Shown one piece after another: positions 36,335 through 60,041 of a stretch of DNA of 64,000 bases. The notes under the pieces are model-generated. The model was not told the DNA's origin. It made no database searches and worked only from the letters and a program-made list of their open reading frames with translations. This DNA comes from Phycisphaerales bacterium (GTDB lineage: Bacteria > Planctomycetota > Phycisphaerae > Phycisphaerales > UBA1924): positions 1 through 64,000 of the forward strand of contig JALHNK010000002.1 of assembly GCA_022843565.1 (NCBI GenBank). The letters are read 5' to 3'. Each line of letters starts with the position of its first letter. Position 1 is the first letter of the stretch. The translations under genes were made by a program, and so were the position numbers.

Positions 36335-38767
36335 ATGCAGGAAGAACGTGTCAACACGATTGCCCGCGCCGAACCTGGTGCCAAGGGCGCGCAGGTCGAG
36401 CTGGTGCTGCGGCACCTGACGGCGCTGCCGACGCTGTCGCCGATCGCGGCGCGCGTGATGGCGCTGAGCAGCGCCGGCGATGCGGACTTTGATGAGATCA
36501 TCGCGCTGATCGAGGCGGACCCGAGCCTCTCGGCCAAGATGCTGTCGATGTGCCGTCGCAGCAACGTCGCGGCGGGCCGGACGATCACCAGCGTGCGGCG
36601 CGCCGTGATCCACCTGGGGCTTGAGGCGGTGCAGTCTGCGGTGCTCAGCGTGCAGATCTATGAGCTGCTGGGCCAGGCGCCATCGTCCAGCGAGCGGCGC
36701 GAGGCGAGCCAAGCTGGTGAGGGTGCCGGTGGCGATGCGGGCGCGGGGAGCGCGGGGGCGTTTGATCGGCTGGGCTTCTGGCGGCACTCGCTCGGCGTTG
36801 CGTGCGCCGCGGAGGCGATCGCCAGCGAGCACAAGTCGCTGAAGATCCGGCCCGACGAGGCGTTCACCGCGGGGCTTGTTCATGACCTGGGCAAGCTCGT
36901 GTTGGATTGGATCCTGCCGAAGTCCTTTGGCAAGGCGGTGCAGCTCGCGGCAAGCCGTCAATCAACGATGGCGTGGGCCGAGCGGCAGGTGATGGGCGTG
37001 GACCATCATCTGGTGGGCAAGCGCGTGGCGGAGCACTGGTCGCTGCCGCTGGCGTTGCAGGATGCCATGTGGCTGCACGGCACGCCGATCGAAGCGTTGC
37101 CGCCGACGCCGAATCGAACGCTGGTGATGGTGGTGACGCTGGCCGACGCGCTGTGCCGCGAGCTGCACATTGGCTGGAGCGGGAGCCATGATCGGGATGT
37201 GACGGTTCGTGCGTGGTGCGCGGAGCTTGGGCTGACCGAGGAGTCGGTGCGGAAGCTGACGCCCCGGATGCACGAGGCGGTGAGCGTGCGGAGCCGCGAC
37301 ATCGGGCTTGGTGATACACCGGGCGAGGAGCTGGTGGTTCAGTCTTTGACATCGGCCAACGAGCAGCTCGGACGATTGCAGCGCGTGTGCCAGGTGAAGG
37401 CGGCGCAGTCGCGTCAGCAGACGCGCGTGCTGGATGTGCTGGCGAACTTTGCGATGGCAGCCGGCCCCGGGCAGTTGCTGGGTGATGTGCTGAGCGACAT
37501 CGCGGTGTCGTTCATGGAGTTGTGCCAGGGCCAAGCGGGCGCGCCCGGGGCCGGTGAGGATGCGCCGTTCTTTGCGATCGTGCACCAATCGCGCGAGGGG
37601 GCGGCGTGGCGCGTGGGGACGCTGGATCAGGCGACGCGCGAGCTGCGGCTGAGCGAAACGATCGACGCGGCGAAGGACAGCGACGGCTCGCCGATATCGC
37701 TGGCGTCGCTGCATGTGAGTGAGGATGGTGGGGGGCTTGGGAACAACCTTGGGGGGACGATCGGGTTGCTGACGTGGCTGAGCGAGCACCTGTCGCAGGC
37801 GGGGGCGGGGGCCGCGCCGGACTTGCGCACGCTTCGGACGATGGCGCTGCCGGCAACGTTCGGGCCTGGTGCGGTGATCGTGCATGATCGCGATCTGTCG
37901 GGAGTGCTGGGCTCTCGGGCGGCGCAGGATGCGCTGCTGGGCACGTGGGCAAGGGCGATCGCCTCAGCGGGCCAGCACGACGGGGCACGCCGGCTGAGCG
38001 AAGAACTTGCGCAGTGTTCTCGTCAACTGATCGAGGCCCAGTCGCGCTTGACGAACTCGCAGAGTCTTGCGCGTTTGGGCGAGCTGGCAGCGGGCGCGGC
38101 GCACGAGATGAACAACCCGCTGACGGTGATCAGCGGGCGGGCGCAGGTTCTTGCGCAGCGGATGATCGATCAGCGCGATCGCGCGGATGTTCAGCAGATT
38201 GCGCAGGCGGCGGGCCGATTGACGGAGCTGATCAGCGCGATGCACCTGATCGCCAGGCCACCGGCGTTGCAAGCGGTGCCGACGCCGATCGGCGGGCTGC
38301 TGTCGCAGCTCTGCCGGCAGATCCGCGGCGGCGGCAACGGCGCGAGCACGGGCCCGGCGATCCGCGTCGAAGCGAGCCGCGTGCGGAGCCCGGTGCTGCT
38401 GGATGTCAAGCTGTTTGCGCGGGCGATGGGCGAGGTGGTGGCCAACGCGCTGCAGGCGGAGCCGAGGACGGGCGTGGACGTGCGCGTGTGGGAAGACGAG
38501 CTGGACGATCGGCTGATGATCGAGGTCCGAGACGACGGCTCGGGGCTGAGCGATCACGCCCTGCGGCACGCGTTTGACCCGTTCTTCAGCGAGAAGAAGG
38601 CCGGTCGGCGGTCGGGCCTGGGGCTCCCGATTGCTCGGAGCCTGATCGCGCTGCATCGCGGCGAAATGTGGATGACATCTGAACAAGGCAAAGGGACGAG
38701 CGTTTTCATCGCCCTGCGCGATTGGCGCGCAGGCGCGAACGAACCTCTCCGAGAGCGGGCGGCCTGA
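36335..38767 (+). CDS. HDOD-GAF-like histidine kinase
   Basis: 810 residues. An HDOD domain fills about residues 20-300 (LSPIAARVMALSSAG, SLSAKMLSMCRRSNVAAG, then TAGLVHDLGKLVLDWILP), interrupted by a Gly/Ala/Ser-rich insertion at about 110-145. A roughly 190-residue GAF-like segment follows. The transmitter has the HisKA box LGELAAGAAHEMNNPLTVIS (phospho-His) and an HATPase domain with EVVANALQAE, VRDDGSGLSDHAL and SGLGLPIARSL. No membrane segment, so it is cytoplasmic. It probably phosphorylates the upstream HTH-receiver protein, though pairing is inferred from position only. Confidence 0.87.
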   Translation: MQEERVNTIARAEPGAKGAQVELVLRHLTALPTLSPIAARVMALSSAGDADFDEIIALIEADPSLSAKMLSMCRRSNVAAGRTITSVRRAVIHLGLEAVQSAVLSVQIYELLGQAPSSSERREASQAGEGAGGDAGAGSAGAFDRLGFWRHSLGVACAAEAIASEHKSLKIRPDEAFTAGLVHDLGKLVLDWILPKSFGKAVQLAASRQSTMAWAERQVMGVDHHLVGKRVAEHWSLPLALQDAMWLHGTPIEALPPTPNRTLVMVVTLADALCRELHIGWSGSHDRDVTVRAWCAELGLTEESVRKLTPRMHEAVSVRSRDIGLGDTPGEELVVQSLTSANEQLGRLQRVCQVKAAQSRQQTRVLDVLANFAMAAGPGQLLGDVLSDIAVSFMELCQGQAGAPGAGEDAPFFAIVHQSREGAAWRVGTLDQATRELRLSETIDAAKDSDGSPISLASLHVSEDGGGLGNNLGGTIGLLTWLSEHLSQAGAGAAPDLRTLRTMALPATFGPGAVIVHDRDLSGVLGSRAAQDALLGTWARAIASAGQHDGARRLSEELAQCSRQLIEAQSRLTNSQSLARLGELAAGAAHEMNNPLTVISGRAQVLAQRMIDQRDRADVQQIAQAAGRLTELISAMHLIARPPALQAVPTPIGGLLSQLCRQIRGGGNGASTGPAIRVEASRVRSPVLLDVKLFARAMGEVVANALQAEPRTGVDVRVWEDELDDRLMIEVRDDGSGLSDHALRHAFDPFFSEKKAGRRSGLGLPIARSLIALHRGEMWMTSEQGKGTSVFIALRDWRAGANEPLRERAA

Positions 38768-38837: not shown

Positions 38838-40037
38838 ATGCACAGCAACTCGAACGAGCACGACGCGAGCCTGAACTCTTTCCCGATCGATCAGAACGCC
38901 GGGCGCGACGGTGTCGCGACTGGTCGCGTGCTGATCGTGTCCGGATCGATCGAGAAGCTCGACGGCCTGAGCCGCGCGCTTACGACCAATGAGCTGCGAT
39001 GCACCACGGTGCAGAGCGCCAAGCCCGCAGTGGAGCTCGTGCTCAGTTCGGCCAGTGGGCGCGCATCGCAGTACGAGCTGGTGGTGCTGCACACAGAGCG
39101 CTGCTCGCCGGCGGCGATGAAGTTCGTTCGCGAGATGTCAGATCTGGATGTCGCGACGGTGCTCGTGTGCCCGCAGGTGAGCTTCGATGAAGCGGTGCAG
39201 GCGATGCGGGCCGGGGCCAGCGACATCGTCTCGGGCACCGTGCGCGGCAAGGACCTGCAACGGCGCGTCTGCTCGGCGCTGGCGCAGCATCGCGGCGCGC
39301 TGAGCCGCCAGTTTGTTCACGATGATTGCATCCCGCTGCTTGAGGATGTTGACCCGCAGGCGGCGCGTGTCTCGGGCTTCCGCACGCCGACGAGGCCGGA
39401 CCATCTGATCGCTGGCAGCGTGCCCAAGGCGCGCCGGATCAAGGACGCGCCGGCGATTCCCGCTGACGAAGACACCGACGGCATGGCCCGCTTTGAGACG
39501 ATGATCCGCAGCGAGCTGGATGTTGAAAGCCTGCTGCGCCACTCGCTGGAGTTCCTGCTGGCGCAGGCCGGGCCGACGAACGCGGCGGTCTTCCTGCCCG
39601 CCGCGAGCGGCGACTTCTCGCTCGGCGCGTACGTGAACCTGTCGTGCCCGAAGGACACGGTTGAAGTCCTGCTGGACCATTTGGCCAACGTCGCGGCGCC
39701 TCGCCTGGAGAGCTCTGTCGGCGTGCTTCGGATGAACACCGATGATCTGGTTGAGCAGCACGTCGGCGCCGGCACGCAATGGCTGAGCGGGCACGACGCG
39801 ATCGCGTTCTGCTGCCGCGATGAGGGCGAATGTCTCGCGGTGTTCCTGCTGTTCCGCGAGCGGCACGCGCCGTTTGCGCCGAACCTTGATCGCTTGTGTG
39901 CGAGCCTGAGCTCGTGCTTCGGCGCGCAGCTTGCACGCGTGGTGCGCATCCACCATCGCCACCTGCCCAAGGACAAGTGGGGCAAGCTCGGCGAGCCGCT
40001 GGATGACGCCGATGATCAGGGCGGGATGGCGGCGTGA
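38838..40037 (+). CDS. Degenerate receiver plus GAF-like protein
   Basis: 399 residues, GAGGGA upstream. Residues about 28-155 have the outline of a receiver (GRVLIVSGSIEKLDGL, ATVLVCPQVSFDEAVQAMRAGASDIVSG) but the phosphoacceptor strand reads ELVVLHTERCS with no Asp, and the conserved Lys is replaced (IVSGTV). Phosphotransfer is therefore unlikely. The second half (about 215-385) resembles a GAF domain that follows a helical linker (MARFETMIRSELDVESLLRH). It probably acts as a ligand- or protein-sensing partner of the kinase 70 nt upstream. Confidence 0.65.
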   Translation: MHSNSNEHDASLNSFPIDQNAGRDGVATGRVLIVSGSIEKLDGLSRALTTNELRCTTVQSAKPAVELVLSSASGRASQYELVVLHTERCSPAAMKFVREMSDLDVATVLVCPQVSFDEAVQAMRAGASDIVSGTVRGKDLQRRVCSALAQHRGALSRQFVHDDCIPLLEDVDPQAARVSGFRTPTRPDHLIAGSVPKARRIKDAPAIPADEDTDGMARFETMIRSELDVESLLRHSLEFLLAQAGPTNAAVFLPAASGDFSLGAYVNLSCPKDTVEVLLDHLANVAAPRLESSVGVLRMNTDDLVEQHVGAGTQWLSGHDAIAFCCRDEGECLAVFLLFRERHAPFAPNLDRLCASLSSCFGAQLARVVRIHHRHLPKDKWGKLGEPLDDADDQGGMAA

Positions 40038-40045
40038 GGGAGCCT

Positions 40046-40111
40046 TCAGCCGTCAGCCTTCAGCCGTCAGCCTTCAGCCGTCAGCAAGAGTTGTCAGTTG
40101 TCAGCACTCAG
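40046..40111. repeat. Heptamer array (TCAGCCG/TCAGCCT words)
   Basis: TCAG occurs at 40046, 40053, 40060, 40067, 40074 and 40081, alternating TCAGCCG and TCAGCCT, then at 40094, 40101 and 40108. Steps are exactly 7 nt within each block. The array starts 9 nt after the stop at 40037 and runs over the stop of the convergent tsaE gene at 40101. Confidence 0.85.
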
Positions 40112-40892
40112 ATGATGAGCCGCGATCGAGTTGTTCGAGATCGTCCTGCGTCGCCTCGCGGCTGACTCGATACGAACCCAGCAGCCAGCGGCCAAGGTCG
40201 GCCCGGCGCGCGTGATCATCGACAAACGGCCACGTTGGCGAATCCGGCGCGACCGGCTTGCCGGTGATCGGGCAGCTCACCCACGAGCGCGGCGTGTCGT
40301 CGGCACCTGCTCCACCGGTGTGTGATGTCCGCGAGGGCGCGGGTGTACACGCGGCCCGCTGGAACGCCTCATACCCGGCGCGTGACGACCAAGACGGGTG
40401 CAACGCGACCCTGATCAGACGCTGATCGGGCGATGCGGGTGCGTGCGACAGCTCCACCTCCGCGACGCGCGACGGATCGAGCGAGCGGATGAACGACGCG
40501 ACACGCGAGGGCCACTCGATGAGCAGCGCGTGCGGCTGATCGGCGCGAGAATCCAGGCCGAGTGATTCGATGTCGCCGTCGGTGAGGCGGTAGGCGTCGG
40601 CGTGCAGCAGTTGCAGGCTCGCGCGATCTGGCGGGGCCAGGTACTCGTTCAGGAGGACGAACGTCGGGCTGCTGACGTTTCGCGGGTCGTGGCCCAGGGC
40701 GCGGGCGACGCCGCGGGTGAAGGCGGTCTTGCCGGCACCGAGTTCGCCGGTCAGCGTGACGCAATCGCCGGCGACGAGCATCGCCGCCAGGAGCGCCGCG
40801 ATGCGCTCGGTATCGTCTTCTGAGCGCGAATGAAATGCGAAGACTTGCGGCGACGAGGCTTCGCGATCGGGATTCGTGCTCTCGGTGCTCAT
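40101..40892 (-). CDS. tsaE: TsaE ATPase fused to a degenerate YacG-like tail
   Basis: 263 residues. Residues about 15-165 are TsaE, the ATPase needed for tRNA t6A modification: Walker A LTGELGAGKTAF (about 47-58), SSPTFVLLNEY, HADAYRLTD and ALLIEWPSR. The last ~60 residues resemble YacG, a small zinc-ribbon protein: CPITGKPVAPDS, PFVDDHARRADLGRWLLGSY. In YacG the motif is CPxCGKPV and PFCSxRC..DLGxW, so three of four zinc Cys are lost while the flanking pattern remains. The start overlaps the thiL stop (ATGA), indicating translational coupling. Confidence 0.85.
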   Translation of the reverse strand: MSTESTNPDREASSPQVFAFHSRSEDDTERIAALLAAMLVAGDCVTLTGELGAGKTAFTRGVARALGHDPRNVSSPTFVLLNEYLAPPDRASLQLLHADAYRLTDGDIESLGLDSRADQPHALLIEWPSRVASFIRSLDPSRVAEVELSHAPASPDQRLIRVALHPSWSSRAGYEAFQRAACTPAPSRTSHTGGAGADDTPRSWVSCPITGKPVAPDSPTWPFVDDHARRADLGRWLLGSYRVSREATQDDLEQLDRGSSSEC

Positions 40893-41821
40893 GCGTGGTC
40901 CCAGCCCAGTGCTGAAGCGTCGTGTGCTCGCCCTTTGTCGTCGATGATGACGCACGCGGGCGCGGATTTCTCTCGACGTTCGACGCGACCGATCTTGGTC
41001 ACGCGCACTCCGCCGGGTAGCTCCGCGGGGCAACTGCCATCATCGAGCGCAGTGAACAGAAGCTGATAGTCCTCGCCATCGCCTGCGCACGCCAGCGGCC
41101 CGCGGCCTGCCGCGTCCGGGTGCAACGGAATCTCCGACGCGACGATGCGGAGGCAGACCTCTGAAGCCTCGCCGATGCGACCGGCGTCGCGCCCGAGGCC
41201 GTCGGAGATGTCGATCATGGAATGCAGTCGCGAGCCCATCGCGTCCGCAAGCGCGACGGCCTGAAGGTGCATCGGCTCGAATGTGAGGTGTCTTCCGCTG
41301 GTGAACGAGCCGCCGATACTGCCGGTGACGAAGACGGCATCGCCGACGATCGCGGTGGAGCGAAGGACGGGGCCGCGCGTGGGGTGCGGCGTGCCAGCGA
41401 TGGTCACGGTGAGCACCATCGGCGCGCCGGCGGGGAGGGAGGCGAGATCGCCGCCGACGAGCGGGCAGTCGAACGATCGGGCGATCGCGTGCATGGCGTG
41501 GAAGAGGGCGTCGGCGTCCGAATCGGTCATCGATGGCGGCAGCGCGCCCGTGGCCAGCGACCAGACTGGCGTGCCGGCCATCGCGGCGATGTCGCTGACA
41601 CTGCGGGCGATGGCCTTGTGGGCGACCGCGTTTAGCGGCGTGTCGGGCGTGAAGTGCCGCCCCTGGATGAGTTGATCGACGGTGATCAGCAGGTTCGCCG
41701 GAAGGGCGGAATCGGGCCCGGCGCGCAGAGCGGCGCAGTCATCGCCCGGGCCCACGACCACGAGCGGGCCGAGGTTCTTCGAGCGATCGGCAATCAGCCT
41801 CAGAAGGCGGGATTCCAGCAC
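40889..41821 (-). CDS. thiL: Thiamine-monophosphate kinase
   Basis: 310 residues. ThiL phosphorylates thiamine monophosphate to the diphosphate, the last step of thiamine synthesis. Family motifs are present: VVGPGDDCAAL (14-32 area), LITVDQLIQGRHF, ARSVSDIAAMAGTP, VGGDLASLP, IDISDGLGRDAGRI and AGDGEDYQLLF. The start is a GTG without a good ribosome site. No TPP riboswitch was seen upstream. It is cotranscribed with tsaE through a 4-nt overlap. Confidence 0.92.
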   Translation of the reverse strand: MLESRLLRLIADRSKNLGPLVVVGPGDDCAALRAGPDSALPANLLITVDQLIQGRHFTPDTPLNAVAHKAIARSVSDIAAMAGTPVWSLATGALPPSMTDSDADALFHAMHAIARSFDCPLVGGDLASLPAGAPMVLTVTIAGTPHPTRGPVLRSTAIVGDAVFVTGSIGGSFTSGRHLTFEPMHLQAVALADAMGSRLHSMIDISDGLGRDAGRIGEASEVCLRIVASEIPLHPDAAGRGPLACAGDGEDYQLLFTALDDGSCPAELPGGVRVTKIGRVERREKSAPACVIIDDKGRAHDASALGWDHA

Positions 41822-59870: not shown

Positions 59871-60041
59871 GGGCCGAGTTTTGAGGGCCGAGGGCGCGGA
59901 AGACAACGGGAATCGGCAATCGTGCTCGATTCCTATTTGCTGCTTTGAGCTTTGAGCTTTGAGCTTTGAGCTTTGAGCTTTGAGCTTTGAGCTTTGAGCT
60001 TTGAGCTTTCAGCTTCTTGCTGAAGGCTGACGGCTGACGGC
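59871..60041. repeat. Long heptamer array (TTTGAGC, TGACGGC, GGGCCGA words)
   Basis: TTTGAGC is repeated nine times without change from 59944 to 60006, then in the same 7-nt register come TTTCAGC, TTCTTGC, TGAAGGC, TGACGGC and TGACGGC up to 60041, 14 units in all. Upstream, GGGCCGA starts at 59871 and 59885, with the related GGGCGCG at 59892, as at 15132-15153. TCGGCAATCG is at 59912. The array fills the whole gap between two convergent genes and stops one base before the uvrC stop codon. Confidence 0.92.

Follow-up and report, generated by a model that had tools for sequence, protein, structure and literature searches.

A conserved TsaE–YacG fusion with a zinc-less YacG domain in a planctomycete family

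The fusion gene and its domains

The stretch of DNA analysed here, 64,000 nucleotides long and referred to as the window, carries a minus-strand open reading frame at 40101..40892 whose 263-aa translation contains a TsaE domain followed by about 110 additional C-terminal residues, among them a YacG domain. The TsaE domain (aa 23-150, 40443..40826, minus strand) matches Pfam PF02367 with an E-value of 7.8e-31, exceeds the curated NCBIfam cut-off for TIGR00150 (72.6 vs 60.1 bits), and retains an intact P-loop, GELGAGKT, at aa 49-56. A variable linker (aa 151-204, 40281..40442, minus strand), recognized by its low mean pairwise identity, separates it from the zinc-less YacG domain (aa 205-253, 40134..40280, minus strand), which is delimited by its PF03884 match, residue numbering, and conservation. 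Adjoining the fusion gene upstream is a minus-strand thiL-like thiamine-phosphate kinase gene (40889..41821; TIGR01379, 183.4 bits, slightly below the 184.15 cut-off), the stop of which overlaps the fusion start by 4 bases.

The YacG match covers positions 1-51 of the 52 in PF03884 and is thus full length. In the whole protein it has an E-value of 1.8e-5 and 24.7 bits, slightly below the 25.5-bit cut-off, and it rises to 29.1 bits, above that cut-off, when the tail is scanned alone; the NCBIfam YacG model gives 30.4 bits, below its cut-off of 79. A profile built from 22 zinc-less tails matches E. coli YacG in the PDB (4tma, 1lv3) with an E-value of 4e-5, and hhalign relates the zinc-less and four-Cys YacG profiles at 99.7%. 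Judged from these profiles, the YacG match is not a chance one. The four ligand positions of the domain are occupied by C207, T210, V224, and A228, such that a zinc Cys is found only at C207 and the four-Cys site of the YacG family is absent; W236 supplies the Trp of DLGRW. A preliminary description of this DNA, made from the open reading frame and its motifs, had proposed that TsaE is joined here to a YacG domain in which a single zinc Cys of the four remains. Both the two-domain architecture and the Cys count stand, and the match to the YacG profile that it had called for was obtained.

Comparison with the characterized proteins shows what is shared and what is new. With the E. coli gyrase inhibitor YacG (PF03884; PDB 1LV3, 4TMA), the domain has in common a full-length profile match, a PF...DL..W core, and the Trp corresponding to residue 40 of the E. 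coli protein, but it is devoid of a zinc site, fused to TsaE, and linked to thiL and tsaE, and its gyrase binding is putative. With TsaE (PF02367, TIGR00150), the ATPase of bacterial t6A synthesis, the protein shares the P-loop and TsaE motifs; it differs by its C-terminal extension with the YacG domain, and its t6A activity is predicted. It is the sole TsaE copy in the genome, no second one being found in the MAG (88.9% complete). A search for a separate yacG, also raised in the preliminary description, found no second YacG over the cut-off in this 88.9%-complete assembly.

The zinc-less YacG domain in the window's family

The profile of 22 zinc-less tails has matches in 146/163 genomes of the window's family, of which 103 were read. 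Eighty of these 103 copies are zinc-less, which is not a random proportion because 40 of the family genomes were deliberately selected, 20 of these on account of low scores. All 80 are fused to TsaE. The other 23 copies have four Cys; seven are fused, 15 are separate genes, and one was left without an arrangement call. The preliminary description had also looked to relatives for fusions with intact Cys, and these occur: fusions are many, and some retain the full Cys set.

Zinc-less copies share the signature CPxTG...PFxxxRA.ADLxxW, in which the Trp, the PF pair, and the Asp are each present in 80/80 and the Leu in 79/80. The pattern at the former ligand positions is similarly narrow, with the first Cys kept in 77/80 and Thr in the second and Ala in the third and fourth positions being the commonest residues. 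In the order sample described below, the Trp never varies in either zinc or zinc-less forms, and PF and DL rarely do. The genus mate of the window's genome, G411, is zinc-less too. One copy (L335, in G418) retains the first and fourth Cys only, as Cys-Ser-Ala-Cys, and is possibly an intermediate or a reversion. In three genomes of one genus (G487-G489; L306, L307, and L308), the whole first YacG knuckle is lost while PF, the Trp helix, and an SRPIE or SRPME tail are kept.

Two measures address the constraint on the domain. For the YacG part of zinc-less fusions, pN/pS, obtained by a crude counting method on a small domain and non-independent pairs, is below 1 in all 22 pairs compared and lower than for the TsaE part in 19/22. 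Mean pairwise identity across 77 of the 80 zinc-less fusions, with the three half-domain copies left out, is 0.505 for TsaE, 0.316 for the linker, and 0.567 for the YacG core. Within the YacG domain, the first half (CPxTGxxV...PF) reaches 0.57 and the stretch from the Trp onward, the least conserved, 0.35. Purifying selection on zinc-less YacG is roughly equal to that on TsaE or stronger. Because the domain is conserved and selected, it looks, from its sequence, to be a zinc-free variant that still functions rather than a relic. The preliminary description had termed the domain decayed, a label contradicted by the conservation of the zinc-less form across the family and by the selection acting on it.

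Pairing of tsaE and yacG in the order and phylum

Profile searches on fetched stretches from an order sample of 151 genomes yielded 126 YacG copies. Three or four zinc Cys are present in 91 of them, 48 fused to TsaE and 43 separate. The remaining 35 are zinc-less, and these are all fused and all from the window's family; none of the 81 copies from outside that family is zinc-less. The separate genes are closely tied to tsaE: in 42/43 cases the stretch that carries tsaE also has yacG downstream of it, and for many of these the ATGA at the end of tsaE offers a start. The exception is the yacG of G121, located elsewhere on its contig. Across much of the order, therefore, yacG is either the direct downstream neighbour of tsaE or fused to it with four Cys. 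Given this position and the ATGA overlap, the fusion joins two adjoining, often overlapping genes. ThiL matches were found in at least 164/203 TsaE-holding stretches, a lower bound set by the limited upstream reach of the stretches.

The pairing has boundaries. Within the order sample, TsaE occurs without an adjoining YacG in 19 family f2 genomes, one of which (G087) is cut by a contig end, so the tsaE-yacG pairing is dispensable. Outside the order, flanks of at most 1.5 kb around 30 YacG loci contained no TsaE match; these loci, some of them near contig ends, were drawn from 157 genomes with a YacG match in a phylum sample that includes a few loci of the class. Zinc-less forms were additionally sought in the phylum sample of 392 genomes; among the best 30 loci, which were read, six are zinc-less, all from the window's family, and 24 have zinc Cys. 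The TsaE-YacG link is older than the zinc loss.

History of zinc loss

A TsaE tree (142 rows, TsaE matches shorter than 100 aa left out) has 125 columns, too few to resolve the history. A GyrB tree of 86 genomes, from which G409 and G468 were left out (2/30 genomes without a GyrB match), splits the family into groups of 17 and 57 genomes. In the group of 17, four-Cys YacG is separate in 13 and fused in three, and one genome is without YacG. The group of 57 comprises 52 zinc-less and five four-Cys genomes (G440, G137, G391, G036, and G448), and these five are scattered, all in the window's subgroup near its genus. By eye, the domain of G137 is similar in its C-terminal half to that of its zinc-less neighbour G101, so wholesale transfer is less favoured. 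Zinc may have been lost a single time, with some copies replaced later, or it may have been lost repeatedly; reversion, first-half exchange, and parallel loss are all candidate processes.

A putative gyrase-binding module

The reading that we tentatively prefer, at a little less than even confidence, is that tsaE and yacG fused, that zinc was then lost, and that the presumed gyrase-contacting helix was kept. Its steps, as suggested by the sequences, would be as follows. tsaE and its old downstream neighbour yacG would have fused in frame within the gene order thiL-tsaE-yacG. In the window's family, the zinc site would then have been lost as a unit, from Cys-Cys-Cys-Cys to mostly Cys-Thr-Ala-Ala, and purifying selection would have retained the zinc-less domain with its invariant PF...DL..W core. 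The tethered domain may fold without zinc, or on its partner, and the invariant Trp helix may still enter the GyrB pocket. The TsaE pool would thereby carry a gyrase-binding or gyrase-limiting module, which might bring with it a regulatory coupling to t6A synthesis.

The E. coli system provides the point of comparison. One review describes the YacG Trp entering GyrB, with the C-terminal region spanning GyrB and GyrA (PMC10886550). In another paper, residue 40, written F40, is the key contact, and GyrB F513 is part of the pocket (PMC5507300). By the PDB alignment of the zinc-less profile, E. coli position 40 counts to the Trp, and the Trp reported to enter GyrB is the residue that is invariant in zinc-less copies. 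The window's genome carries one GyrB. Counting from the DADVDG motif in E. coli numbering, the residue that we take to be the pocket Phe is present in 86/86 GyrB sequences read, the window's included; this lends the gyrase reading weak support because that stretch of GyrB hardly varies. With the contact Trp invariant and the pocket Phe present, a tethered gyrase-binding module that can do without zinc is favoured with modest confidence.

Two observations weigh against gyrase as the partner. In E. coli the interaction is said to depend on the C-terminal tail, yet conservation of the zinc-less domain is lowest from the Trp onward, and the experimental support for YacG-gyrase binding considered here comes from E. 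coli, not planctomycetes. Packing could instead be the reason that the Trp is retained. An AlphaFold model of the full protein, computed with seven TsaE relatives and none for the tail, is confident in the TsaE part, with tail pLDDT mostly below 50; the 67-residue C-terminal stretch modelled alone has a mean of 57, and neither model bears on the tail fold.

The main rival is a role in the t6A complex, in which the YacG domain would now serve t6A synthesis and contact TsaD, TsaB, tRNA, or TsaE, the tether having made zinc unnecessary and gyrase being no longer involved. We consider this somewhat unlikely, though several points favour it: zinc-less copies are never free-standing, the strongly conserved first half is needless for a pure Trp-helix role, and the genome contains TsaD and a second TsaD-family match. 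However, the invariant part is the very Trp helix common to gyrase-binding YacG, the first half has been lost in the three genomes of G487-G489, the linkers are long and variable, and TsaE lineages lacking YacG exist.

It is quite improbable that YacG in these bacteria was never a gyrase inhibitor and that the shared Trp serves another partner. The gyrase inhibition work considered here is on E. coli (PMC10886550, PMC5507300), and the shared locus of yacG, thiL, and tsaE in the order is in keeping with a different function, but zinc and zinc-less forms alike have the Trp, and nearly always PF and DL, and GyrB carries the pocket Phe.

General zinc sparing, by which the zinc proteins of the lineage lost their sites owing to scarcity of the metal, is a very unlikely explanation. 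Ribosomal protein L36 lacks its usual Cys set in 6/18 zinc-less-YacG genomes vs 1/12 four-Cys genomes, in a survey of 30 rows of which seven outside the initial pattern were read individually before counting. L36 retains the full Cys set, however, in the window's genome, its genus mate, and 12/18 zinc-less-YacG genomes, and G019, with four-Cys YacG, has a Cys-poor L36. Since L36 keeps its Cys in the window's genome and 12/18, zinc sparing is not the whole reason. L36 and YacG are alike as zinc proteins with a stable zinc-less version; they differ in that zinc-less YacG is found only fused to another protein, and the two traits are not coupled genome by genome. The Cys-poor L36 loci (L373-L376, L378, L384, and L393) are patchily distributed among relatives.

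Last, that the domain is a decaying passenger, a useless remnant with three of its four zinc ligands gone, is scarcely credible; at the level of the whole family, pN/pS, identity above that of TsaE, and invariant residues in 80 genomes rule it out.

Wider meaning of a tethered, zinc-free YacG

A broader proposal may be framed, which we regard as unlikely at present: a zinc-free gyrase-binding module on the t6A ATPase would link tRNA modification to DNA supercoiling across a planctomycete family, tethering of the Trp helix would remove the need for the zinc knuckle, and the amount of gyrase held back would be set by the dosage of TsaE or by its ATP state. The family and its relatives provide a natural series of separate four-Cys, fused four-Cys, fused zinc-less, and fused forms without the first knuckle, which lets one ask what purpose the YacG zinc serves and whether gyrase and t6A synthesis are coupled in bacteria. 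The window's protein also illustrates that annotation by a whole-protein cut-off can miss a fused YacG (24.7 vs 25.5 bits). In the literature searched, with most subscription journals outside its reach, neither a description of a TsaE-YacG fusion nor a paper on zinc ribbons with lost cysteines was found.

Other features of the window

At 40260-40274, the zinc-less signature CPxTGxxV...TW.F resembles a glucokinase of known structure at a CPITGDWVAMTNHTWAF stretch (E 0.011), perhaps by chance or as a similar zinc-free turn. Beyond the fusion gene, a large plus-strand open reading frame at 36335-38767 has a histidine kinase at its end and is followed by one at 38838-40037 with weak response-regulator likeness. 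Units similar to GCCTTCAGCCGTCAGC form a short tandem repeat between convergent genes at 40042-40085; there is a second site at 60019-60041 on the opposite strand, and there are seven matches in the window vs 0.12 expected.
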